64,000 nt of DNA, from assembly GCA_011109175.1 (NCBI GenBank), contig RDEW01000045.1, positions 239,417 through 303,416 of the forward strand, written 5' to 3'. Shown here piece by piece: positions 663 to 61,342 of the stretch. This stretch comes from Dicyema japonicum (taxonomy: Eukaryota > Dicyemida > Rhombozoa > Dicyemidae). The position numbers and the translations under genes were made by a program. How positions within the stretch are numbered: the first letter of the stretch is position 1; each line of letters opens with the position of its first letter. The notes below the pieces were generated by a model that made no database searches, was not told where the DNA came from, and saw only the letters and a list, made by a program, of their open reading frames with translations.

Positions 663-1046
663 TGGTTTAAAAAACTAGAATAACAAGTACGTTTTAATTT
701 AAATCAAAAAAATTATGACGATATTTTTAAATGACAAAGTTTTCAGAGTATCCCTTTGGACCTAAGGTCAGATAAATCTATACTTCCGAAGATGCGGGAA
801 AAATACCCCTTCAAAACCAAATGTAATATAGAGACAGACGAGAGTGATTCGTATTTTAATGAATGTTGTGATTAAATCACTATTATTATTGTCAGCATTG
901 GATAATCCTCTGGCAGAGCCGAGGGGGCTTTTAATGCTCGCAAAAAATGCAACTAGACTAGCAAGCACGTTTTATTTATTTATTATTTATTTTATTTTTG
1001 ATATTAAAAAATATTAATATAATAATTTAGTATCTAGGAAACAGAA
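663..1046. other. AT-rich spacer before WDR35
   Basis: No conserved coding frame is visible. A 66-codon minus-strand frame (768-968) has no recognisable motif and is probably chance. The final 80 bases are almost pure A/T and lie directly upstream of the WDR35 start, so they could hold its promoter, but no element stands out. Confidence 0.5.
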
Positions 1047-4000
1047 ATGCATTCATATTTGTTTAAAAAAGTAATAAAAATATATAGCAAAGTACGTATC
1101 CCCCAATAATGAAAGAATTATGTTTGTGTGGAATAAATGTTCTGGTTATTTAGCAATGTGGTGGTGAGGAGGGACTATTAAAAGTATTTCAAATTGATAT
1201 GCAAGGTTTATATTATTACTGTTTGATAGGTTTGAATGATAGGAAACAATTATATTTCCTGAATGTTAATAGAATTCATGAAAGTAGTTATGTAATAATT
1301 AATTAGCAAATATTACTTGTCTCGCATGGTCAGAGAAAACAAAAAAGTTATCCTCAGCTGATGAAAGTGGTATTATTATTATTTGGAGACATTTTGGGGG
1401 TTTAAATTGATGATGACAATAGACTCAATGAAGGAAGAACTAATAAATGATAATAATTTACATAAAATTATTGATATGAAGTGGGATAATTCTGGTAAAC
1501 AAATATGTATAATATATTCTAATGGTATTGATTATCGATTATATAGGGAATATTAATGTGATCACGAATGAGGGTGCCTTAGTTTGGAGTAACGAACAAT
1601 ATAGCAATATTATATCACTACAAGTTGTTATTATAATTTATCAAAGTGGTTCCCAAATTGTGATTCCATTTTGATTGGAAGGAAATCCCAAATTATTATT
1701 TTAGACAAGCGTGGTAATAAAATAGTAATAAATTTAATAAACTAAGGGGAATATTGCAAATGACTCTGAAATATCCTCAATTGTTTGGTATAATGGAGAG
1801 AATGGATGGAGATTTAATATGTGTCCAACATTGGCTATTTGTCTAGAAGATGGAATTTGTAAATTAATGAGGGATGTGAATGACACAGGTTATATGCTTA
1901 ATCTCAGTTAGAATTTATTACAATTAAAACTGAAATGTCAATTTTATGTGCGAAATGGAATAGAGACGGATCAGTTATAGCAATTGGGGGAACTTTCTTG
2001 AATATTAATAAGATTGTCAATATTATCAATTTTTATTCTTTAAATGGGAAAGTAATGTGAATTTGTAGTCATTAGCATTTAAACTCAATCAAATTAAGAG
2101 ATGGTAATTTTAGTTCATAGAGTGGAACAACTCAATGATTGCAGCTTCCATTGACAATGAAATATCATTTATTTCCACCAAACATGATCACAATGTAATT
2201 TTATATTTTATTTAATAGTGGAGTCAATGTTCTGATTCTATGATATATGCTTATCCTCTTCCTTACTCTTCATCCTTCGTTGTTAGATTTTGGAACAAAA
2301 AATTTGTATATTTAATGTGATAATAAGATTGTTAAAAAACTGGTTAATAATTTAGAGTTTTTGGAGGGATGTCACCAGAATTGTTGTATTATTGTCAAAA
2401 ATGAAATTGATGTAAGCTAATACTAATATAAAAGCATTTAGTTACAATATATAATTCTATTGGCAATCCTATTGATTCTCGTACAATAAACATTTCTCCC
2501 TGTTTTTGTCAAATCAATAAAACTCACCTTGTGATTGGTTCAACAAATTTATTATATATTTGGGAATATCACAAATCGAGTGACAAAATATTAGAAATGA
2601 ATAAAGTTATGATTACTATAATATTAGTCAAATGAAATATCATCAATTTGTTTGTTCGATGACCTTTGCATTGTGACTATTGGTTTATATTATAGGGATG
2701 GACAAATGGAGATATTATAATTTACAAAATGCCAGCTGTTTCACTATTAAACAAATTCAATATATGTGGAATTCCTACTACATTACAATTTAACATAAAT
2801 TCAGAGTTATGATTAAATTAACATTTAGCAAAGTATCAATTATTGATTCTTGTGGAATTTTGGCAATAATAAACATCAAGGAGACAACAAAAATGGAAAA
2901 TATAAGAAGGGATGTGAGGGATTTAAAATGGGCAGAGGTATAACGTTTTACTGAATTAAGGATAACCCAAATTTGATGGCAGTAATGGAAAAGTCAAAAT
3001 TATATATTCTTAAAGACGGAGAGCCACAAGTTGATAAATATTAATTTCAGGAGGTTTTGACTGTGTGGACTATATTTATTCGTTCAGTGACTTACGCGTG
3101 AGAACCATAAATATCGATAATTGTCAGTAATGCCGGATTACCAAATGAAGTTTATATTTAATATTTATGAATTAATAAAAGTAAATAATATTAATAATTC
3201 AAGTCAATAAGAATTGTAAAGTGTTTGATAGAATGTAGTGATTTTGAAGGGGCAAAGAGGTATATAATGGATAATTCGCACAAATATTTATGGTATATTG
3301 ATGTGTTATTAAAGGGATATTCTTGGTGAAGCATCTTTAATTAATTTAAACTTAGACATTGGAGAATTGTCATATACAGTTTGTCAAAACTATCCATATA
3401 TTCAGTTTATCAAAAGTCTTAGGAATATCAATGTTATTATTCTCATTAATTTAGGATAATCACATCAAATTAGCCAAGGTTATGACTTTGTTCAAGAATT
3501 ATAAAAAGGCACAGAATATTTACTTGTCAATAAATAGAAAAGATTTGTTAATCCAATTGTTGAGAAAAACTGGTAATTATTTTCAAGTAAATAAATTATT
3601 GGAAAATGATAACCCAGAAATCATAATAAATAATAATTTTATTGGAAACTATTATGCTGACTTTAACAAATGGAAGGAAGCATTAACTTACCTATCAGAT
3701 GATCCTAGAATTATTGACTGCTGTTATGCAATTGAGGACTATGAGGCTCTCAAAAGACATGTTCATCATCTTCCTCAGACCTTTATTTACAAAATAGCTC
3801 ATATTTTTAAAAAGTCAGGAATGTATTTCGAGTCCATTGAAACATACCAAAAATTACAAAATTACGACAAAGCCATTGATGTCTGCATACAAGGAAACTA
3901 TTGGGACATGCCTTGAGTACTAATTTAATTTCTCAAAATATTGACAATCTCGTTAATTCTGGTCAACTGTTTGAGGCCATCACTTTATGTAAAGAAGCTG

Positions 4001-4672
4001 GTAATTATATTGATGCTTGTAAATTTGTTATTGAATTTGCTGATAAATACAAATGCCATTCTTTGGTTACAAAAAAGAAATTATATGTTTTGGGTGGATT
4101 ACTCTTTGAGCAACAACATAATAATATTGATAATCCATGGAAAGGGGCAGAAGCATATCACTTTTTAATATTAACCAATCATTTCATTAGACAACGTTTG
4201 TTTTATGATTATTACAGGTAATTATGAAAATGCTTTTTGGTGCTCATATAGATTGCTGAATTATCAGAATATATTAAAGTCACATAATATTCATGCTTTG
4301 ATAGGTTTTATTGTTTTATTATTTATAGCTCTTTCTGCCCTCTTTACTAATCGATTTAAGATATCTTCCAAACAATTCATATCTCTGGAACAATTGGGAG
4401 TTGAGTACAAACACCTATCTTTCAAAATATTCTCATCGTTTTGATATTTTAATATTATTAGTGAAAAGGGAAAGATAATACTCAATTCTGACACAACTGA
4501 TTTGTATTTTATTATTTTACTATACAGAAATGAAGACTTGACTAAACCAGTTTGTTATTCAACAGGAAAGCCAATTAATATTCAATCATCTTGGCAATGT
4601 AATGTTTGTAAACATTTTGCCAACCAAATTAAAAGATTTTGTCCTCTCTGTCATCACAAAATTGATCTTTGA
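1047..4672 (+). CDS. WDR35: Intraflagellar transport protein 121 (WDR35), many 22-24 nt introns
   Basis: Ortholog of the IFT-A subunit WDR35/IFT121, needed for retrograde ciliary transport and ciliary membrane protein entry. The start at 1047 gives MHSYLFKK, matching the family's short N-terminus. WD repeats follow (AWSEKTKKLSSADESG near 1325-1370), then the TPR-like region (exon from 3455: AQNIYLSINRKDLL, KAIDVCIQGNYWD) and WKGAEAYHF near 4140. It ends in the C-terminal zinc-binding tail CNVCKHF...CPLCH, stop at 4670-4672. At least sixteen introns of 22-24 nt restore frame between 1071 and 2960, with more downstream. Single-base frame slips occur near 1155, 2104-2120, 3040 and 3915, so this copy is either lightly damaged or carries assembly errors. 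Confidence 0.9.
1071..2960 (+). other. Set of sixteen minimal spliceosomal introns in WDR35
   Basis: Inferred introns, each GT...AG and each joining WDR35-like frames: 1071-1092, 1206-1229, 1284-1306, 1400-1422, 1525-1546, 1624-1646, 1725-1746, 1888-1910, 2052-2075, 2195-2218, 2306-2327, 2412-2434, 2606-2627, 2673-2695, 2806-2828 and 2938-2960. Lengths are 22, 23 or 24 nt. The one at 2412-2434 contains TACTAA, a branch-point-like hexamer. Without removal, stops or frame changes break almost every exon junction. Confidence 0.85.
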
Positions 4673-5267
4673 AATTGTCTTTTAATAAAATGCCTTGGTA
4701 CTTTTATAAGACATCATTGAATTTGAAATTAAGTTTAAATATGAGGGACACCGGAAATAACTTCAGTAACACCTCGAATGACCTTAACTCTTTGCTAGGA
4801 TCTCTTCAATAAATAATCCACAGTAGGTTGGACACACAAAAGCAAATCACAGTCCTTCATACGGAAGTTCTCATTCTAAATTCACTTTCACTAATCTCAG
4901 TAATTTATACTGGTTTTCGTTTAACTTAAGACCTCACCGGAGAGCAAACTTTATCTCCTTGTCTTTTCAGCATCAAAATAATTCCCACTTCAGAGAGGAT
5001 AACCAAATCTCTAATCCATATAAGAGTAATGTCTGAACGGTTCTTAGAAAGACAGAGAAAAATTTCCCATCGAATCTTGAGCTGCAATAAAGCCATGAAA
5101 ATATTGAAAGAAGAGTGCTAATGAGGGAAATCTATTTAAGACATTCTTTTCCAAACTTAATAGACAATTTTCTTACACAGTGAAGCTTTTATCCAATCCT
5201 GCAGACAACCTGGAGAATTTGGTCGCCAAAACTGTTTCACTAGAACCTCATGTTGCCAAAATTCTGC
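4673..5267 (+). other. Unrecognised coding-like stretch upstream of the Ginger insertion
   Basis: A frame running from about 5117 to the insertion point reads FFSKLNRQFSYTVKLLSN, then NLENLVAKTV and EPHVAKILQ, with no stop. If the Ginger element and one target copy are removed, it continues without a stop into 7063-7180 (LKGKWSRMIFEMPKS). The rest of 4673-5110 shows no clear frame. I do not recognise the protein. It may be an exon of a host gene disrupted by the transposon, or an older transposon piece. Confidence 0.4.
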
Positions 5268-11520: not shown

Positions 11521-11557
11521 TTTTTGGTTGAGGTGGTGACGTCCCTCTACTTGCACT

Positions 11558-13369
11558 ATGTCTTCTTCGTATTGCTTACCAGTTTCTCCCCTCACTCTTG
11601 GATCCCTCAACTGCCGAGGCCTCAATCAGTGCTACAAGAAACAACAATTGGCGCGTGATCTGAGTAAATACAACATCTCTGTCTGTTGTTTGCAAGAGAC
11701 GAAAATAACCGAACAATCTGCAGAACTGTTTCAGAATTTTTACCTTTTGACCCTCACACCAGACTGCAGGCACTATGGGCTCGGATTTGCTGTTCATCGG
11801 CACTTGTTTCACTGTGTCTCAAGAGTATGGGCAGTATCTGACCGTGTCGCGGTGTTACAAATCAAATGCGGAAACAAACTCAACTCAGTGATCTCCATCA
11901 TAAATGTATATGCCCCAACCGGAGCACGTGTATCAACGAATATCGAAGAACTGGATACGTTTTACTCTACTCTCACAAGTGTGTACAACTCACTTTCATC
12001 CTCTTACTTTCTTTTTATCGCCGGGGACTGGAACGCCAGGGCCGGAAAAGCAAGACCTGGTGAAACGTGTATTGGATCCCACGGTAGAAACCGCCGTAAC
12101 ATCCCCGGAGAGGCATTAATACAATTTTGCACGGCATTCAACCTACTCATATGCAACACTTGTTTCAAGCACCCGGCAAGACACAGGACCACGTGGGTTG
12201 GTACCAGAAAAGGCAAATCTGGAAACACAGTCAATATATACAATCAGATCGACTATATTATCTGCAAGCAACATCAGAAGGCCCTCCTACAGGACTCGAG
12301 ATCTTACGGTGGACTTGAAACAAGTAGCGATCATAAACTTGTGGTCGCCCGGCTAGTACTTAAAAGAATCCATGGAATACACGGGAAACACAAAGGCCTT
12401 ACCTCAGTACGTTTCGACACTGAGAGGTTACGCTACGAAGAATCCACCAAATGTCGTTATAGTGCAGTTCTGAGAGATAGCATCAACAGTATTAACCAAA
12501 ATCAGCCGACAAACAGCTTATGGGATGAAATAGTGGTTGCTATCCAAAACACAGCCTTTAGTGTGCTTGGTCACATCACCAAATCTCGTCACAAACAATG
12601 TAATCCGGATATCGGACAACTCTCTGTAACACAGAAAGAGCTCAGACTCCGGATGGAAAACACAAACGCTCCGGAAGATATCAAAGTACTGCGCACCCAG
12701 AGAGGGAGAGTCTTAACGAAGATCAAACAAATACAAAGATTCCTTGCCAAAAATGAAGCTGAGGAGAAAATCTCAGACATATTAAAGTACAAGAACGGAC
12801 CAAGAATGTTCAAAGCAATCCGGCTTCTTAGCAGAGAAAACTGTCCAATTTCGTTAACTGTCCATGACAACCTTGGTCACGACGTTATCGGGACCATTAA
12901 CAAAGCAAACGTTCTGGCATCCCATTTTGACCTTATGTTCAACAAACAGGACGCGGCTGACCAAGCAATGAAATCTCGGAAGTCTTACAAGTACACTCTA
13001 ACTAGCCCTATTACCATATCCGAAACTCAACAAGCTATTAAAAAATTAAATACCGGAAGATCTGCCGGACCAGACTTCATTACTGCAGAACTTTTACAAT
13101 ACGGCCCGGAGGAGCTAATTGAAATGATTACTAACATTTTCAACCGGTCTCTCGAGGGTGCAGATGAACTGGAACTGGGAAAAGGGTGGCTAATTCCACT
13201 ACAAAAACCGGGAAAAAGTAAAGGCCCCCCACAACTTCAGACCTATTATACTCCTAACCTCCATACGAAAAACATTATCCCTCATTGCTTTAAACCGAAT
13301 AAAGGAGAGGGTGAACATATTTCTTTCGGACGGCCAAAGTGGATTCCGGACGGGCAGGTCCACGGCTGA
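11558..13369 (+). CDS. APE-type endonuclease and start of reverse transcriptase (family A)
   Basis: A 603-codon open frame. Residues 10-250 form an apurinic/apyrimidinic-type endonuclease: LGSLNCRGL near residue 15, LQETKI (catalytic E), NVYAPTG, GDWNARAG and SSDHKLVVARL (catalytic D-H pair). It nicks target DNA to prime reverse transcription. A linker follows, then reverse transcriptase fingers (GRSAGPDFITAELL near residue 500, LIPLQKPGKSKGP). The frame is lost after the fingers, near 13270-13370. The endonuclease domain looks intact. Confidence 0.85.
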   Translation: MSSSYCLPVSPLTLGSLNCRGLNQCYKKQQLARDLSKYNISVCCLQETKITEQSAELFQNFYLLTLTPDCRHYGLGFAVHRHLFHCVSRVWAVSDRVAVLQIKCGNKLNSVISIINVYAPTGARVSTNIEELDTFYSTLTSVYNSLSSSYFLFIAGDWNARAGKARPGETCIGSHGRNRRNIPGEALIQFCTAFNLLICNTCFKHPARHRTTWVGTRKGKSGNTVNIYNQIDYIICKQHQKALLQDSRSYGGLETSSDHKLVVARLVLKRIHGIHGKHKGLTSVRFDTERLRYEESTKCRYSAVLRDSINSINQNQPTNSLWDEIVVAIQNTAFSVLGHITKSRHKQCNPDIGQLSVTQKELRLRMENTNAPEDIKVLRTQRGRVLTKIKQIQRFLAKNEAEEKISDILKYKNGPRMFKAIRLLSRENCPISLTVHDNLGHDVIGTINKANVLASHFDLMFNKQDAADQAMKSRKSYKYTLTSPITISETQQAIKKLNTGRSAGPDFITAELLQYGPEELIEMITNIFNRSLEGADELELGKGWLIPLQKPGKSKGPPQLQTYYTPNLHTKNIIPHCFKPNKGEGEHISFGRPKWIPDGQVHG

Positions 13370-14048
13370 CGTGGTATGGGGGCACAGGTGGTATTGTGCC
13401 CTGTGCCAAATATGGTTCTTAACCGTTAACACCGATAAAACAGAGTTCACAACACTTACACGCAATGATCGAAGATCGGACGAGTCTTGGAGAAAGCAAA
13501 AGAAGGTGGGTTCGCTTCTCGGGGACTCAGAAGATGTTTCTCGGAGGAAAATCCTCGCAATGTGTGCACTAAAGAAAGTATCGAATATGTGGGGTCATAA
13601 GAAGAGGATGGGATTAAACAACAAACTCAGAATATATAAGGCTTTTGTCATCCCCGTCCTGACCTACAATTCAGGCACTTGGGGAATCTCTAAACAAGAG
13701 ATGGACCGTCTTGACGCTTTCCACAGGACACAATTGAAATCAGTAATCAAGATCAAGTGGCCTAAGAAGATCTCAAACAATGACCTCTACTCGAAGTGCA
13801 AATCTGGTATACTATCCGAGGAGATCTTCAGATCAAGATGGAGTCTCTTTGGACATATCTTACGTCTAAATGCTCAAGTACCCGCGAATATCGCCATGGA
13901 AAACTACTTAATGCATACGGGAGCCGGTTTCCGTGGAAGACCAAGAGTCACACTCCCAACTATTTTGAATGGAGACCTGTCGGCTGTGGGACTGAAGCTC
14001 ACTTCCGCAGACGACCTAGATACCTTAAGGGAACTGGGCACGAAGTAG
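13311..14048 (+). pseudogene. Family A reverse transcriptase, C-terminal part after internal deletion
   Basis: The frame starts in fingers/palm (SGFRTGRSTADVVWGHRW) and jumps directly to the post-catalytic region (VNTDKTEFT, GSLLGDSEDVSRRK). The motif A aspartate, the SPLLF box and the YADD box seen in copy A2 (56640-56945) are missing. The thumb and C-terminal region follow: VIPVLTYNSGTWG, SLFGHILRLN and FRGRPRVTLP, the family A signature. Catalytically dead. Confidence 0.85.
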
Positions 14049-37620: not shown

Positions 37621-39597
37621 TTATGTGGTCCACCAATTCAAAAAATTCAAAAGATTTGGCAACGCCCAGAGGGCTTCTAATACCCTCTCGAAAAGGACCA
37701 TTAGACCCCTTCCCCCCGGGGGTCATTATCGACCCCCGGCGATGTGCTTCAAGAAAGTCCAAACATTCCCGGCGAAAACCCTCAGCCCAGAAAAAAAATT
37801 TACTGCTCTCCAATTGAAAATCAACGGAATTAAAGGCAAGGTCAGGGAACTCCGTTCAATCCTGGCAAATCAGAATATCGACGTGGCCATGATTCAAGAA
37901 ACTATGATTCCACTCCTTCATTCCCTGGATACGAGGCAATCAGGATAGACCGTAAAAAGAGAAGAGGGGGTGGACTACTTACTCTATTCAAAAAAAAAGC
38001 CTGAAATGTAGAGACATTACTTCGGAAGTGAGGAAACTTGTTGGAAATGACGAGGTTACTGAGGCAATTGGAATCTCGCTTGGGACAACGAAAGGAAGTA
38101 TGCCTCTTGAATATCTACTTGCCTCCTCCGGCTCCTGCCCAAAGGACTATGTTATTCCAAACCTATAAGATTGGCTATCTACGATTAATAAGCATATGTG
38201 GAGATTTAAACGCAAAGCACCCATTATTGTTGTCAACCCGACAAGCCGACACGAGAGGAAAGCTATTGTTATTGAAATCGGACTCCCTAACGATACTGAA
38301 CGATCCAGCGAAAAATACAAGGACCCCACTCAGAGAGACGGATCAGCTTACCTCACTGGATGTAACACTCTGCTCTTCGTCGCTTTCATCAAAAATTGAT
38401 TGGTCAGTCCTCTACGAAACAAGAAGCGACCAATATCCAATTGTGATGAAGGTCATGAGAGAAGTCAGAGTGAAGAGAACACCTGCTAGTTATAACTATA
38501 AAGCTGCTAATTGGGAATCTCTGATGATAGACTGAAGAATTGTTATCTGGTCAGCTTCAAATCGCTAGAAAAAGCGATCAAATATTTTACTTGCATTATC
38601 CTAGAAGCAAGATCATTGGCTATTCCCAAGCATCCTCTAAACTCCTCTAATGGTCGAGGGAAGTCGGCATTGATCAAAGAAAGAAATCACTTAAAAAATC
38701 TAATTGGATCACATTAGAAACGAAACTCCGGATCAGAGCTCTAAACAACGAAATAAAGGCCAGAGAGTTCAAGGCCAAGAAATAGAAGTGGAATCGGATT
38801 CTTACAAAGGTAACTCGCAACCGTAGTACCAGAGAAGAGTGGAAAGCCATCCGAAATGTTGCAAAGGGAGAAGAAACTTCCCCCGAGGATGAGTATACTC
38901 AACGAGAGGTTAACAAATTGATAAAATTCTACACAAAATTTTTGTACAAGAACACAGGAAGTCGGAAATGCTTCTCTCTTCATTGAGAAAACAGAAGAAG
39001 GATTCTAACCCAGTTTACTTTTCGGATGAAGACGAGAAGAATGCGCTGCGTTTTACAAGAACAACGTACTCTGCCGGTCCCGACAACATTCCAGTAGTGT
39101 TCTTGAAGAACCTTGGAGATATTGGAGTCGGTTTCTAACGTCGGTGTATAACTATTCAATTAATTGTAATGTAATACCGTTGTTATTGAAGCAAGCCAAC
39201 ATCCGACCTATACTGAAACCTGGAAAACCTAAGGAAGATCCGGCATCATTTAGACCTGTGTCATTGCTATGTTCCATATTGAAAATCCTGGAGAGGCTTG
39301 TGATTGGGAGAATCAAGGTTTTCTTACCAGAAAAGGATTTTCAACACGGATTCAAGAGCGATTGTTCTACATCAACGTACCTACAGAAATTAATCAACTT
39401 CATTAGAGATGAATTTTCAAACAAACCAAGGCATTTGAAAACAGTCTTATGTTCCATTGATATTAACAAGGCCTTTGATTCTATTTCAATAAAAATATTA
39501 TCAAAGAAAATTTTCCAGTCGAGATCCTTGGGAAGCTTAAACTTTGGATAACAAATTTTTTAAGTGGACGAAGGGACCTATATGCCTCGGAAGACTG
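37621..39597 (+). mobile_element. Family C LINE, endonuclease through motif A
   Basis: 37690-37950 encodes PEKKFTALQLKINGIKGKVR, LANQNIDVAMIQETMI, the endonuclease N-terminus with catalytic E. 38100-38540 gives LNIYLPPP, GDLNAKHPLL and SDQYPIVMKVM, the remaining catalytic boxes. 39000-39590 is the reverse transcriptase fingers (NIRPILKPGKPKEDPASF, VLCSIDINKAFDSISIK) up to LWITNFLSGRRD. It then ends abruptly against an oppositely oriented family C copy. Several frameshifts. Confidence 0.8.
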
Positions 39598-47818: not shown

Positions 47819-50530
47819 TTAAGGCATCTGAATGGCCATGCTATTTCCCCTAACAATAGCCAACGAGATACGTTCTCGGAACCAACCAGTCTCTCGCGGA
47901 TCCATGGTCACAGCTTGAATCATTGAGCCGATCTTACGAACCAACTCATCTGCTTGGGGGCCAAGGATTCCTGACGTTTCCACCGCGAATGGAACAAAAA
48001 GATACTCCTCCGAAATTCTCTGGTACTTCCTCCTCTTTCGTTCCTCGGCCTGCTTTGAAGCATGTCCTGGGTCTGAAGCAGAAGCAACCAAATTAGACGG
48101 GGAATAAGTATCAACACACGTCGCGTCCCAGATCAGGTTTCGTCCGTTGGCGAATGGAAAAGTCGTCATCCCATCAGGGCGTTTTCCATCGTTTCGGAAA
48201 GACCAGCAGGTTCTAACAGGCAATGGTGTCAGCAGAGGCAAGGGAATTCTTTAATGTCATGTTAAGACAGGAGTGCCTGGGGAAACGACCCGCACTCATC
48301 TTGCATGACAAGGGATGATAACCAAAAGGATCGATCCAACGTCCACAGCGGCATTTTCTTTCGGCACACAATTTAAGACCAAGACGAAGCGAGGTAGCTA
48401 TTCTCACAGCCTCATCATCCAACAAGTTTCCAATTTTGGCAGATGGATAAGCGTTCATCCAGGCCCTCGTCGAGTGACAACTGGCTGTTTTGAGGCAGGC
48501 AAGCCTTCTTACATCTTCCGTCTTTTCAAGGGACTCTTTCTTCTTTTCGAAGACACAAAACAAATAGGACTTTTGCTTATCACAATTGGCCGAAGCATTC
48601 AGGTACAAATTCATCCCAGGCTCCCGACGGCGTCAGCGGTACGTTTAGTCCGGAAGTAGAGTGAAGGACCGTATCCACTAAACGCCTTGACGAGCCGAAC
48701 GAATATAAATAGGCGCCCAAAGCAACGTCCGAAGGAAGAGAAAGACCCAAACCACCGTAGGCTACAGGGAGTGAGGCCTGTAACCATCCGAAATCATCAA
48801 AACAAACATTAAGAATGGACCCCATCGTTGACCGGATATCCATATCAATTAACGATAGAAGGTCTTTTTCGGCGTAGCATGGGGATCCCCGTAGAATAAA
48901 AAGGAGTTTTGGGAGGAGACAATTCTTCAGCATAAAAAAGGCGACATGACGGTCCAAAAAACTCATCCTGTCGGCATACTGACGTAAATTAGTCCTCTTG
49001 CCTTCCAATAACTCCCTCACCCGGTTTACCAAAATCCCACACCCAAGGAAGTCGAGAGAATCAATATGAGTCTCCCTAACCCCTGGGATGATATCGCAGA
49101 GTTTTCTATGAAAAAGGTAGAATGAATCGGAACTCAAATTCAGATTAATTGCTTCGCACTTTTCATTGTTAAATTCCAGACCGATTTTTCCACACAAACG
49201 TCTGATCGATGCAACTTTGGAGAGAATATCATCGGGACTTCCACCGAGAATACAATCGTCCAGATACCAGACGTTTAGTGGAGTGCAACGGTCCTGGGCA
49301 ATATGGTCGATAGACAAGGAAAATAGAAGAGGACCGAGTGGGTCCCCCTGTTGAACTCCGGATCCGGATGAAATAATTCCGCTGCCAAAAACAAGAGGGG
49401 ATGGATCCGAATACGCGAGATATACAAAGGGATAAATCTGAGGAATCCTCCTACAGGTATCAAGAACGGTGTCCCTTTGACTGAATTGAAGGCATTCCGG
49501 AGGTCCAATTTGAATAAAACTCTGTCCTCAACATTCAATTCAGCTGATTGTGATGCAAATTCTCTCACTGCGTGGAACCCCAGCTTCACACACCAAGCTG
49601 CGAAGGACAAAATTCGGCTGAAATTCGGGAGATAACAAAACGACAAGCCATTTTTGCGGATAAACGTCGAAATACGTTTCCAATTGCAATGGGGCGAATA
49701 CCACCATCTTTTTTTCCAAGGCTCGTTAGATTCGCTGAAAAGAGGAGATTCCGACCAAAATCGGAAACGTTTCCGGAAAGCATGCGAGCTACGAGATCCC
49801 GGGTTCGCTCCAAGAGTAGCGATCCAGGCCTGCCGACAAAGTGGGACACCAAGTCTGACAGATGGCCAGGTTTGAGACCGTCAACTTTTCCACTGCTACT
49901 TCTTCGGAAAGAACAAAGAGAATTGTAAATGGCTGAAGTGGAAATATCATGCATAGATTGTTCTGGACGAACAGGTTTACAAAAGTCTTCTGGTTCTGGA
50001 AAATGTTTCTGTCCCAATATACAGAATGTCTCCTGAGTGGTTTTCACTGGGTCAAAATCCGTACAAACAGTTCGAACTGCAGCAGTAAGATCGCCTCCAG
50101 CAATTTCCTCCTGACACGAGAGCGATGCCTCTCAGGAGCCATACTGGATTGTTTGGAATTGGACTTTGGGAAGTAATCAACTGGGGAAACAAATAATTCT
50201 TCAGCCAGGGACTCCCATTAATCCATAAAGGCACTCACGCGCTTCTTCAGGACATGGGATAGAGAGGGTTTCCGAGAAGATGGGGCAGGCTTACGCTCTA
50301 ACCCCATAGCCAGGACAGGGAAAGAGAAAAGAATTATCCAATCCTTTTTCGAGTCATTGGACACAGCTTTCTCAATGCAAGAAGAAAGGGCAGAAGCAAT
50401 TGAGATCCGGGAAGCTTTGGGGATCCTGACAGGGATAATCTTCCTTTGTCGCGTGTTTGATAATAAAACCAGAAATTCCTCCGGAGACATGGCTTCCAGA
50501 AGATCTGATACAGATGATGATGACACAAAA
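47819..50530 (-). mobile_element. Family H LINE, nearly complete but frameshifted
   Basis: Minus strand, N to C: 50526-50218 with RIPKASRISIASALSSCI; 50047-49586 with SGKVDGLKPGHLSDLV and KKDGGIRPIAIGNVF (fingers); 49550-49500 FKLDLRNAFNSV (motif A); YLDD box at 49255-49266; thumb LDFLGCGIL and LRGSPCYAEKDLL. Then a zinc knuckle (CRCGRWIDPFGYHPLSC, about 48350-48300) and a C-terminal domain RPDGMTTFPFANGRNLIWDA with CVDTY. The PD...D pattern looks like a PD-(D/E)xK nuclease, though assignment is inference. At least four frame changes. Confidence 0.8.
48580..49317 (-). pseudogene. Family H reverse transcriptase, palm and thumb segment
   Basis: The longest uninterrupted frame of this element (245 codons). 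It opens just before TPLNVWYLDDCILGGSPDD, the catalytic Y-x-D-D turn, then KIGLEFNNEKCEAINL (primer-grip region) and a thumb with RMSFLDRHVAFFMLKNCL and LLSLIDMDIRSTMGSIL. The end GLGLSLPSDVALGAYL is the conserved segment before the zinc knuckle. Motif B is lost in the frame break upstream (49320-49400), so the enzyme is not complete. Confidence 0.8.
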
Positions 50531-56360: not shown

Positions 56361-56513
56361 AAGGAGATAACTCATTGAGCACATTTCCTTGCAAATCGTC
56401 AGGGGAAATGCCTTCTCAATTATGCGTTATATAAAAAAGTTTTTTTTTTTTTTAATTTTTTTTTATAAAAAAGTTGATATAATTATTATTAATCGTAAAT
56501 TTTTTTTGTTCTA

Positions 56514-57545
56514 GTGGTTTGGCGGATCTTACCAGCTAGTCAAAGTGTGTTCCGAGAAGGGAGGTCTACGGCAGACATTGTATGGAGCCACAGATGGCGC
56601 TGCGCAACGCACCAAAGATTCAAGAGCGCAACGACCGTGTTGGGAATAGATCTCTCCAGAGCTTTCGATTCAATAAACAGACAGAAACTGATGAATGTGC
56701 TTGAGCAAATATTGGATGAATCGTCGGTTAAGATAATCAGACTACTACTTGCGAACACAAGACTATCTGTGAGGACAGAAGGAGCAACTTCACGCAGTTT
56801 CAAAACAACGATTGGGACACCCCAAGGTGATTCCCTCTCCCCTTTACTATTCACCATATACCTTGAATCTGTACTCCGCGACCTCCGTAAATGCTATATA
56901 GGAGACATAGAAGAGACATCTTATGCGGATGATGTGGATTTCGTATCACTGGACGTGACAGCACTCCAACACCTACTAGAAAATGCACCTGCGGAGCTTG
57001 AGAAATGGTTTTTAGCGTAAATGTAAACAAAACTGAAATTACGGAAATCAAAAGAGAAGACGATATTACTCATGAAAGATGGAGACGTACTAATAAGCTC
57101 GGCTCTCTAGACGTACTAATAAGCTCAGCTCTAGGAGACGCTGAAGATGTACTAAGGAGGAAAACACTGGCAAATGCGGCAACGGCTAAACTGAAGAAAG
57201 GATGGCTAAAAGCCAAAGACTTGGAATTGACATCAGATGCAGGCTTTACAACGCGTTTGTGAAACCGATCCTACTGTATAACGCTGGGACATGGGGAAGT
57301 TCCTTCAACGAACTATTGAAACTGGATTCTTCCATAGAAGGCAACTAAGAAGCTTACTCGGAATGGAGTGGCCACGTAGAATATCAACCACTGGTATCTA
57401 CAACAAGTGTATGTGTTCTTACATCAGCAAGGATGTGATAGATGCCCGGTGGAGGCTATTTGGGCATGTACTAAAATTGAACCCGGACGCACCCGCTAAC
57501 AAAGCGATGGAAGATTACTTTGACAGTTGCGACAAACCCTTCTTA
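56514..57545 (+). mobile_element. Family A LINE copy A2, reverse transcriptase with intact YADD
   Basis: 56514-57020 is one open frame: VFREGRSTADIVWSHRW, GIDLSRAFDSINRQK (motif A), TIGTPQGDSLSPLLF (motif B) and TSYADDVDFVS (motif C). After a frame change 57005-57262 continues VNKTEITEIKRED, with a small internal duplication of the GSL...LGDAEDV area. 57291-57545 is thumb (WPRRISTTGIYNKC, RLFGHVLKLNPDAPAN). 5' truncated; the 3' end is fused to family B near 57545. Confidence 0.82.
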
Positions 57546-59910
57546 CAAAAAAATATTGAAGATATAAACCAATTAGAAGTGAGAAGTGTGTCTTCAGGAC
57601 TACATGATGCCAATGGAACTAGCATACGATGTGGGAAATGTTCCTGCTCATCTGCTGTCCCTAAAAGCATTAGTCACTGAGATTCGATCAGGTGACAGGA
57701 TCAAGTGGATCTCAATGGTTGTCAACTCTGCGAAAAGGAGATTCGGGAGAATCCCTCGTGGTGGATGGAGTCTCATCGTCCAGCAACTCAATGCTCGTTT
57801 CTCCACTCATAAAAGTGTACTGGTGTTAGAAAATTATTGAATGTAAAGCCTAATAAAAAGACGCCCGTTGACCAGAAAAGTCGAGATGCTTGTTCAAATT
57901 GAGAGAGTTAAATTAGTTTCCCGAGATGGAAGGAAACCCACACAAAAGATTCCATACAAGTTGCTTAAAAAGGATGTTCTTATTACATTAAATGCAGTGA
58001 TTTCAAATTATGTGTCATCATCTGCGCCAATGGACATGAATGAGATAACCGACATAATTTATGCTGCACAATGCGTATATGAAAATTTGACAAAGAAGCA
58101 ATCAGTAAAAAGCTGTTAGAGGAAAAATGTGGAGAAGAGAATTGCAAAATTCAAAGAAAATTGCGCCTTAGTTTATGGGTTTACTGGGAAGCAGTCAAGG
58201 GAAGAAAGGAAAAAAACGCTTGATTTTTTATGCTCGCTTGGATACAAGAAATCAAAGAAGGGAGAACTGAAAAGGATATCTAGCCTAATTGAAGACAAAA
58301 TCAAGATCATGGAGAAAAATCTCAATTCATGAATCAAGAAAATCCTTTAGACGAGATAATTTTTATTTTGAGCTGAACAAGAGGAGGTTTTATCGGAGGC
58401 TCAATGATGACGTCAATAATAGTGACTGTAAAGTTACAGAAAATGAGTGCGTGTCATTTTGGAAAGATGTGTGGGAAAAGGATCAGAATTATTTTCACAG
58501 AAATATTGTTGGGAGGCGAATAACAGGAGCAGAGGAGTTACCTGTTAGATATGACAGTTGAGTTCGTTAAGAACATTATTCACTATACGCCGAATTGGAA
58601 GAGCTCTTGCTGTGAGTATATGGATTATTTGTCAAGAAAGTTGATTTTTTTTATAGTTGGAGAGATTATCAAGATAGTGAGTGGTGAATATTGCCTGGAA
58701 GAATGGTTCTATACTGGGATTACGTACCTCATTCCGAATAAAGAAGACTGCTTTTCTCCGAATGACTTACGACCAATTACGTGCATGCCTATATTGTACA
58801 AACTTGTCACAAAATGTGTTAATACAAAACTTACGGATTATATTGAAGGTTTTAATCTTATCTCGGATAATCAGTTTGGAGCAAGAAGGCAGTGCAAAGG
58901 AGCAGGCTTTAATAAATAAGTGTGTTAATGCTGAACATGGAAATAGCTTATTCACAACATGGATTGTGAAGTTTATCAAAAATTTAATAAGCAAGTTGAA
59001 TGTTATTTTGAACCTTAACAAAAAAAGAATTGGAAAGGTCAAACTCGGGAGAGGAATCTTGCAAGGAGACTCACTCTCCCTCCAGCTGTTTACTCTGGAA
59101 ATGGACCCACTAAGCCGAATATTAAATATAAAATTCCCGAACATATGTATTGATCAGAGTGATCGGTCTATTGTGACATGTGCGACTAACCATTTTCTTT
59201 TTATTGACGACCTGAAAATAATTGCCGAATATGAAGATACTTTTCTAAAAATGATGGAGGATATTGATGCTATCTAAAAAAGTCTGCAACTAATCTGAAA
59301 TGTGCCAAAGATACAAGTTATCTGGATGGTTGTGAGGGATATAGCTATCTTGGAGTGTTAGAAGATAAAGGGAGTAAGGTTATGAAAGACAAAGTTATGG
59401 AAAAAATTGCTGAAACTGTGAAGAAAAGGATAGAGATGCTGGCGAATTCGAAATTAAACGCTGTAAACTTGTTTAAAGCGATAAATGAATTCGCACTCTC
59501 GCTATATAATTATTATATTGGGCTTATTGAACCACGTGAATTCGAAGCTATTGATTTAGAAATCCGGTGTATACTTTCTAACTTACGAGTGCACAACCTT
59601 CTAACAAAGAAAGATTGTATCTCAACAGGAATAGTTTTGGAGGAGGATTAACCTCAATAAGAGTGAATGCATGTTATTTCAATTTTTGACTGACCTTGAG
59701 AGGAAATCTTCCATGTGTCTTTGAAGGGCAGGAATCTTGCGGGTCCTAAAACAAAGGAAAACACATATGACAACTATCGCAAGATTTATTTCACTCAAAT
59801 ACAATGTGGATGACCTATCTAACTTGAATACTAACATTATAAAGGAATATCAAAAAAGAATTATTTGCATACACCTACAACTATGTCATCAATTTGGAAT
59901 AAACTAAAAA
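57546..59910 (+). mobile_element. Family B LINE, longest copy
   Basis: 57720-58120 is the N-terminal part (RFGRIPRGGWSLIVQQL, IPYKLLKKDVLITLNAV). 58129-58560 is a lysine-rich linker ending VSFWKDVWEKDQN. 58640-58920 gives fingers (TYLIPNKEDCFSPNDLRP, DNQFGARRQCKGA). Motif A is missing or lost in the frame change near 58925. Motif B GRGILQGDSLSLQLF is at about 59045, HFLFIDDLKIIAEYED (IDD box) near 59195 and thumb with KLNAVNLFKAINEFALSL at 59450. The C-terminal nuclease is not clearly retained after 59660. Confidence 0.75.
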
Positions 59911-60264: not shown

Positions 60265-61342
60265 TTATGAGATTACATGAATATACTCTGTTGGGTTAAA
60301 CGATTTGTCTCTAATTGCCTGTAAATTCAAATTCTGTATAATAACAAAAATTATACTTTGAAAAACGGATGATCCAACACATCACTATCCTTTAAGGACC
60401 CAAGTCGTTTGTTTGGGTTTTTAACAAGTAACTGAGATTCACAAAGTGTAATACCTTCGAGATTATATCCTTGCACATTTTATTTGTTCCAATGGGGAAG
60501 TAAGGGTAGAGTCCGAGAATATCCGAGCATAGTTTTAGAATATCCATTTTTAAGTAAGGAAACAAAATATAAATAAAACAATAATACTTTTCGAAAGTAC
60601 ATGTAATAAATGACAATCCCTAAACACCACCAATCCACACTATAGTTGAATTGATGGTAGATTATCAGTTCAGGTGAGGCATAAACCGGGGACCCAGCCA
60701 TTGATTTGCAAGATTCATCTCGACTAACTTTCATTTCGCTGATACCAAAGTCAGTAATTTTAACGTAACCATCCGACCCCAACAACAAATTTTCTAATTT
60801 AAGGTCCCCAAGGTGGGCAAAAAGAACGAACCTATGAATGATCATGTTATCATGAAGGAACTCCAATCCAAGTGCTACGCAGGCGGAATAAAACTTTACT
60901 TGGCGCAAACTAAAACGATGTCTTCTCTGCAGATATTCTAAATCTCCCAAATCAAAGTACTCTAGAGCGAAACAAATATTGGACTAAAGTTAGACCGAAC
61001 TAAACCTCATCATAAAAGTAGGAATTTATGTGAACAAATAAGTGACTGTCCGATCTTGTTACCAAATCAAAAATCACCAATTCATTTCGTATTCTTTTTA
61101 ATTCTACGGATTCGTCAATATTTTGACTTTTCACTGCGGCTTTATTTTGACTCCTATCTTCGAACAAGGCAACCTATTATTTTAGTCAAACTACCTTTCC
61201 AAATCCCCCAATTGCTATTGTCCCTATTTTAGTATAATCAGTTGGGGAGGACCTAATCAATATATCACATGTTGTACATTTTAACCATCAAATTTAGAGT
61301 ATTCAACAAATTTTTTAATTTTTCAATATTTTTGTCACTCAT
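60265..61342 (-). CDS. AGC-family protein kinase, PKN/PKC-like catalytic domain
   Basis: Short serine/threonine kinase of about 300 residues with no regulatory region. Exons, minus strand: MSDKNIEKLKNLLN start (61342), glycine loop IGTIAIGGFGKV (first glycine replaced by alanine), catalytic lysine in AAVKSQ, CFALEYFDLGDLEYL hinge, VKFYSACVALGLEFLHD (very PKN-like), IIHR...DLKLENLLL catalytic loop, ITDFGIS (DFG), GSPVYASPEL (APE altered to SPE), SVDWWCLGIVIYYM, then NPNKRLGSLKDSDVLDHPFF and a short tail. Introns 61252-61276 (25 nt), 61174-61194 (21), 60984-61005 (22), 60808-60831 (24, atypical end) and more downstream, including one of 23 nt before the last exon. Stop at 60265-60267. Confidence 0.8.
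60808..60831 (-). other. 24-nt segment splitting the kinase HRD motif
   Basis: On the minus strand the codons for H-R and D-L-K are separated by 24 bases beginning GTTCGTTC and ending CCTTGG. Removing them gives an unbroken HRDLKLEN. The length and GT start fit the local intron class, but the 3' dinucleotide is GG, not AG. Left in, it would add eight residues without a stop. Confidence 0.6.

Follow-up and report, generated by a model that had tools for sequence, protein, structure and literature searches.

Twenty-four introns of 21–24 nucleotides in a WDR35/IFT121 gene from a very probable dicyemid genome, with a possible positional branch-point signal

Very short introns have been published since 2007 for dicyemids, minute animals that parasitize octopuses and related hosts. 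Mean intron length is 26.2 nucleotides (nt) in Dicyema acuticephalum (16 introns; PMC2222250), and a 2008 survey of 41 Dicyema introns gives a median of 25 and an average of 24.93 nt, with no branch-point signature (PMC2483917). The median is 27 bp in Dicyema sp. (PMC6543705), and the annotated mean is 38.2 bp in D. japonicum, whose genome measures 67.5 Mb (PMC6736024). The corresponding median in orthonectids is 57 bp (PMC6543705), while introns measure 18–21 nt in the Bigelowiella nucleomorph (PMC2222250) and 15 nt in Stentor (PMC12862383, PMC9505925). Here we analyze a window, i.e. a whole stretch of 64,000 nt belonging to C133, one of the 191 contigs of an assembly totalling 64.67 Mb, which carries a WDR35/IFT121 gene interrupted by 24 introns of 21–24 nt. 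These introns rank with the shortest reported from animals, and they show a trait already known from dicyemids in a cilium gene with many exons. As judged from sequence, they are very likely ordinary U2-type spliceosomal introns that have shrunk to this size in a working gene of a dicyemid or of an animal very closely related to the dicyemids. The original prediction for this locus had taken them to have the smallest size physically possible for spliceosomal introns, which they do not, because the Stentor introns (and likewise those of the Bigelowiella nucleomorph) are shorter.

The WDR35 region (positions 1040–4720) was aligned with our own splice-aware aligner, in which any intron length from 14 to 60 nt was permitted, to human WDR35 as the reference protein. 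The first output was an end-to-end match with 24 GT-AG introns, 23 of them of 20–25 nt and one of 17 nt. Its score of 577 fell to 279.5, with 19 frameshifts, when introns were priced out, and two controls, the reversed protein and the opposite strand, scored 22.5 and 18.5. All 11 alternative pairs of boundary dinucleotides scored below GT-AG (323.5–555.5) and returned scattered lengths, with 2–12 introns of 20–25 nt each, versus 23 for GT-AG. The closest pairs, TA..AT and TT..AA, left one frameshift each versus four with GT-AG, which is to be expected for dinucleotides so common in AT-rich DNA. Compared with the PDB using phmmer, the spliced product matches 8fgw_A (chains named WD repeat-containing protein 35; E=2.4e-158) in three stretches (query residues 2–429, 434–885, and 867–1024 of 1026), so that the N-terminal WD repeats, the middle, and the C-terminal parts are all covered. 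It also matches a chain named IFT121 (8bda; E=2.1e-137) and, more weakly, 8hmc and 8f5o. A protein search among 5.8 billion proteins returned 4770 candidates, none of which reached E 0.001 or better. By homology, we assign positions 1047–4672, the limits given in the original prediction, to WDR35/IFT121, with an ATG at 1047 and a TGA at 4670–4672.

The final set of WDR35 introns, with coordinates taken from the alignment after refinement, is given in Table 1. All 24 introns are GT-AG, and their lengths are 21 nt (one intron), 22 nt (eight), 23 nt (nine), and 24 nt (six), for a mean of 22.8 nt. The original prediction had called at least sixteen GT...AG gaps of almost constant length (22–24 nt), each breaking the frame if retained. 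The introns and their boundaries hold, GT-AG being the best of the pairs compared, but the count is 24, one intron falls just outside the length range, and the effect on the frame applies to 21 introns: 17 shift the frame and four more bring an in-frame stop, whereas introns 2, 22, and 24 do neither. Two introns owe their limits to visual inspection. Intron 2 had been left in the exon by the aligner, and for intron 6 the aligner had chosen 1627–1646 (20 nt); both solutions fit, and the longer one was preferred. Two initial calls were abandoned: the 17-nt intron at 2104, because WDR35 relatives in the PDB retain that exon, and a 69-nt "intron" at 2627–2695 in the first alignment, which in fact comprises two introns and an intervening exon.

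Table 1. Features located in the window (coordinates are window positions).
Feature	Coordinates	Strand	Length (nt)	Phase	Remarks
WDR35/IFT121 gene	1047..4672	+			24 introns; splice-aware protein-to-DNA alignment, PDB phmmer
WDR35 intron 1	1071..1092	+	22	0	
WDR35 intron 2	1206..1229	+	24	1	no frameshift, no stop; added by eye
WDR35 intron 3	1284..1306	+	23		
WDR35 intron 4	1400..1422	+	23		
WDR35 intron 5	1525..1546	+	22		
WDR35 intron 6	1624..1646	+	23		chosen by eye
WDR35 intron 7	1725..1746	+	22		
WDR35 intron 8	1889..1911	+	23		
WDR35 intron 9	2052..2075	+	24		in-frame stop
WDR35 intron 10	2195..2218	+	24		in-frame stop
WDR35 intron 11	2306..2327	+	22		
WDR35 intron 12	2412..2434	+	23		
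WDR35 intron 13	2606..2627	+	22		
WDR35 intron 14	2673..2695	+	23		
WDR35 intron 15	2806..2828	+	23	2	
WDR35 intron 16	2938..2960	+	23		
WDR35 intron 17	3030..3050	+	21		in-frame stop
WDR35 intron 18	3181..3203	+	23		
WDR35 intron 19	3293..3314	+	22		
WDR35 intron 20	3433..3454	+	22		
WDR35 intron 21	4196..4217	+	22		
WDR35 intron 22	4305..4328	+	24		no frameshift, no stop
WDR35 intron 23	4438..4461	+	24		in-frame stop
WDR35 intron 24	4504..4527	+	24		no frameshift, no stop
Endonuclease/reverse-transcriptase match	11540-14048				
Endonuclease/reverse-transcriptase match	38032-39551				
Endonuclease/reverse-transcriptase match	48580-49527	-			
Endonuclease/reverse-transcriptase match	56499-57020				
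Endonuclease/reverse-transcriptase match	58681-59277				
AGC-type protein kinase	60432-61191	-			closest PDB chain PKC theta, E=2.7e-27

Introns of the same length class are found in other genes, spread over many contigs of the assembly. With the AAA_6 domain of dynein as query, 52 exon matches were obtained, from which 13 places were taken; one pseudogene-like locus (L028) was left out, and introns of up to 150 nt were allowed. The 12 remaining dynein loci contain 75 introns, 74 of which are 20–29 nt long and one 53 nt (median of all 75: 24 nt). Intron lengths are 24, 23, and 25 nt in Pax6 and 23, 23, and 26 nt in METTL16, while U2AF2 has six introns of 22–23 nt plus two of 42 and 68 nt. Outside WDR35, 86 of the 89 introns are thus 20–29 nt long, and in the 16 loci including WDR35, 110 of 113 do not exceed 29 nt, so that introns mostly under 30 nt occur across genes. 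These counts omit L028, a WDR35 relic on contig C77, and a kinase gene of the window. L028 (C83:1080800-1082000) is a dynein heavy-chain locus with one in-frame stop, two frame breaks, and odd gaps, and its introns (24, 83, 142, and 51 nt) were left uncounted because of its pseudogene-like state. In the 12 counted dynein loci, in-frame stops are present in 22 of the 27 introns with a length divisible by three, versus 25 of the 47 others (p=0.023). We do not build on this excess, as the aligner misses stopless introns of such lengths and a bias is possible.

Splice signals were studied in 98 introns from 13 loci (24 from WDR35 and 74 from dynein genes). Ninety-three start with GT and five with GC, the latter being spread singly over five dynein loci; outside this set, GC also opens one intron of METTL16 (L033). 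Past the GT, the donor signal is mostly exonic. In 71% of the introns position −2 is an A, and in 88% position −1 is a purine; at +5, in contrast, G reaches only 12%, below its share of 20.8% in exons. Positions −3 to −1 carry 1.22 bits of information and positions +3 to +6 carry 0.52 bits against exon composition, or 1.08 bits if equal base frequencies are taken as background; 0.5 bits have been published for dicyemid donors, on a background that may differ from either of ours (PMC2483917). True sites stand apart from other GT sites mainly by their exon triplet (score of 1.96 vs. 0.94), the triplet at +4 to +6 differing little (0.93 vs. 0.77). When donor positions are assigned to U5 (exon side) and to U6, no trade-off between the two sides is found in these introns (Spearman −0.10, p=0.30). 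The same transcripts contain 427 decoy GT-N-AG pairs of 20–29 nt versus 93 true ones, and donor, acceptor, composition, and length jointly separate the two classes with an AUC of 0.961, each gene being predicted from the others. Finally, internal AG dinucleotides at most 13 nt from the 3' end number 17, versus 38.2 expected from base shuffles (0/400 as low) and 22.7 from dinucleotide shuffles (13/400).

The original prediction had asked how a branch point and an acceptor can be accommodated in so little space. For the branch point, the 98 introns suggest a first answer: a weak site, T-N-A-Y, whose A precedes the 3' end by 6–8 nt and follows the intron start by about 16 nt. TNAY is found at this distance in 50 introns, versus 27.5 expected (0/1000 dinucleotide shuffles), and shows no clear excess at 9–11 nt (31 vs. 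27.2) or 12–14 nt (28 vs. 27.4). The excess is present in the dynein subset (35 of 74 vs. 18.0; 0/1000) as well as in the WDR35 subset (15 of 24 vs. 9.4; 12/1000). As the 6–8 nt interval had been picked on these very introns, it was tested on 12 introns added later, seven of which carry the motif (vs. 2.1 expected; 0/1000). In introns of at least 25 nt, TNAY stays equally far from the 3' end (10 of 27 vs. 5.1; 13/1000), and no fixed distance to the 5' end is detected (5 vs. 5.4; 667/1000).

Several observations speak against a functional branch point of this kind. The interval was chosen after viewing the data and the replication set comprises only 12 introns; in introns shorter than 25 nt, anchoring to the 3' end and to the 5' end are indistinguishable; pairing with U2 is weak (mean best score of 4.5 vs. 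4.33 in shuffled introns, 15/500 as high; 4.13 vs. 4.02 in another run); and neither TRAC (11 of 98 vs. 11.2 expected) nor TAAC (5 vs. 7.2) is enriched. The signal might then be an artefact of base composition with no favoured position, in line with these U2-pairing scores, with the behaviour of TRAC and TAAC, and with the lack of a signature in the 41 introns of PMC2483917. We nevertheless consider such an artefact rather unlikely, as the counts in the dynein, WDR35, and later sets all surpass those of dinucleotide shuffles, and as the signal tracks the 3' end in longer introns. We see about even chances that dicyemids possess a functional branch point of this type (a weak T-N-A-Y, 6–8 nt from the 3' end at any intron length) combined with a 5' splice site that is almost wholly exonic, in which the U6 contact at +4 to +6 would have been largely given up.

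Other points count against spliced introns in a working WDR35 gene. The similarity of the spliced product to WDR35 is partly circular, because the reference protein steered the splice choices. In the counted intron sets the aligner was restricted to GT-AG or GC-AG ends, so that the U2-type boundaries rest on the dinucleotide control. A homology-free scan for GT-N-AG segments joining open frames, conducted over 149,520 bases, shows no clear length peak (51 segments of 22 nt and 59 of 23 nt, versus 19–53 for each length of 19–21 and 24–28 nt) and is uninformative; the length histogram proposed in the original prediction thus covers the 16 loci. Finally, the WDR35 frame is not unbroken after splicing, as five single-base breaks, which the original prediction had missed, remain in exons near 1156, 2115, 3066, 3119, and 3908.

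These breaks are the basis of the main rival explanation, under which the locus would be a recent pseudogene: the introns would be true fossils, the breaks true mutations, and the gene non-working. The existence of a decayed WDR35 copy on contig C77 can be cited in its favour. However, that relic looks different, as it has lost several bases at a time in many places and can be aligned only in short pieces, and the locus in the window is the sole full-length WDR35 match in the DNA of the assembly. Breaks aside, its aligned exons are free of stops (although the aligner penalizes stops). In addition, similar breaks hit other conserved genes: there are five in one dynein locus (L019), one each in three others (L021, L023, and L025), and one each in Pax6 and METTL16, while the remaining eight of the 12 dynein loci and U2AF2 have none, which points to patchy assembly quality. 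A recent pseudogene is therefore improbable, and the five breaks are probably assembly errors. The decayed partial copy (C77:837400-841700; L034 and L035) retains traces of intron sequence, and a 48-nt intron call made in it was left uncounted. As for L019 (C2:627650-629050), it is a cytoplasmic-type dynein heavy chain with its five breaks within 1.4 kb, versus none in eight of the 11 other counted dynein loci.

The identity of the genome can be approached through its paired-box genes. PAX domains are found at four places in the assembly, and one of these loci is a Pax6 gene with a paired domain, interrupted by one intron (phase 0), and a homeodomain, interrupted by two (phases 1 and 0). The presence of such genes indicates an animal, and the tiny introns inside Pax6 argue against host contamination. 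D. acuticephalum Pax6 has the same series of phases (0, 1, 0), but other animals share the intron positions (PMC2222250), which are thus characteristic of the gene and not of the phylum. One could alternatively assume a protist with mini-introns or an animal other than a dicyemid, since the median intron of Paramecium bursaria measures about 24 nt (PMC12862383). The four paired-box places and the Pax6 introns of 23–25 nt make this very improbable, as do the low information content of donor positions +3 to +6, close to the dicyemid value when exon composition is the background, and the longer orthonectid introns (PMC6543705). The genome, whose size and intron lengths also suit Dicyemida, is very probably that of a dicyemid or of an animal very closely related to this group, and the dicyemid-like character ascribed to it at the outset is supported by both the paired-box genes and the introns outside WDR35.

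Genes for small nuclear RNAs (snRNAs) of the major spliceosome are present in the assembly: U2 has 25 matches (22 above the Rfam cut-off), U6 has 10 (nine above), and U1 has 11, all below the Rfam gathering score. The copies that were read contain the branch-pairing region of U2, the 5' pairing end of U1, and the ACAGAG of U6, and these pairing motifs are the usual ones. METTL16, RED_N, and SF1-HH matches are also present, as is a gene for the large subunit of U2AF, whose exon matches each fall below the curated whole-protein cut-off but in which 220 of 420 residues are identical to U2AF2. Dicyemids have been reported to discard DNA in somatic cells. That the WDR35 gaps are removed from DNA as internal eliminated sequences, rather than from RNA, is nonetheless hardly credible: the TA..AT pair scores 555.5 with one frameshift versus four, but in a TA- and AT-rich sequence, whereas GT-AG has the best score and alone yields tight lengths (23 of 24 within 20–25 nt, versus 10 of 27 for TA..AT), and the donor, acceptor, and branch-like signals together with intact snRNA genes fit splicing.

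Under the splicing scenario, the mini-introns would be removed from RNA and recognized as units (intron definition). As positions +4 to +6 carry little signal, U1 and U5 would mainly read the exon side, that is, A or C, A, A or G, followed by GT and A or T. The branch adenosine would be that of the weak T-N-A-Y located 6–8 nt from the 3' end and about 16 nt from the 5' end. A polypyrimidine tract of its own would not fit into such an intron, and the acceptor would be a (T)AG closely downstream of the branch site. Homologues of RED, SF1, and U2AF2 are present in the assembly.

Two other kinds of feature were located in the window (Table 1). The AGC-type kinase gene has introns called at 18, 22, 28, and 23 nt, and its HRD motif is split by eight extra residues. 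Excising 24 bases there would leave, by eye, a GC-rich GT..GG gap, so that the insertion may be real. The endonuclease and reverse-transcriptase matches are remains of LINE-like retroelements; two of the reverse-transcriptase matches are below the Pfam cut-off.

Among the papers listed by our literature search, PMC2483917 is the only one in which we saw dicyemid introns treated together with branch points or splice sites, and a branch point may already be described in the principal paper on these introns (Ogino et al. 2010). The positional branch-point signal and the exon-weighted donor are the part of our results that is possibly new, and the 2008 statement that dicyemid introns lack a branch signature can now be rechecked genome-wide. 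The WDR35 introns provide test material for the place of the branch point and for the choice of donors that are weak at +4 to +6. If our interpretation is true, an animal spliceosome would work at 21–24 nt with nearly ordinary snRNAs.

Among known systems, Stentor coeruleus resembles this genome in its tiny GT-AG introns, and its branch A is mostly at position 10 of 15, without a strong consensus (PMC9505925). It is, however, a ciliate with shorter and more uniform introns, and its branch position is nearly fixed, while the one proposed here is a statistical tendency. Two classes of 5' splice site, read by U5 or by U6, have been described (PMC9803359); the donors of our sample lean to the exon (U5) side, but the two sides are not found to be anticorrelated in it. 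Human introns that depend on the SMU1/RED pair, needed where donor and branch site are close together (PMC6692369), or on SPF45/RBM17 (PMC8363638) pose a common problem, namely a short donor-branch distance and a truncated polypyrimidine tract, and a RED_N match is present in our assembly; the human examples exceed ours in length (the SPF45 model intron measures 56 nt; PMC8363638). Published Dicyema micro-introns are alike in length class, in their very weak 5' sites, in their occurrence in animal genes, and in similar genome size, the WDR35 introns being slightly shorter; a positional branch-like motif is seen here versus none in the 2008 survey (PMC2483917). Finally, Paramecium bursaria, although a ciliate, has introns in the range of 24 nt, and its ordinary U2-dependent spliceosome keeps short-intron factors (PMC12862383). 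The present genome would be that of an animal with ordinary-looking U1, U2, and U6 whose spliced introns come close to the Paramecium size.

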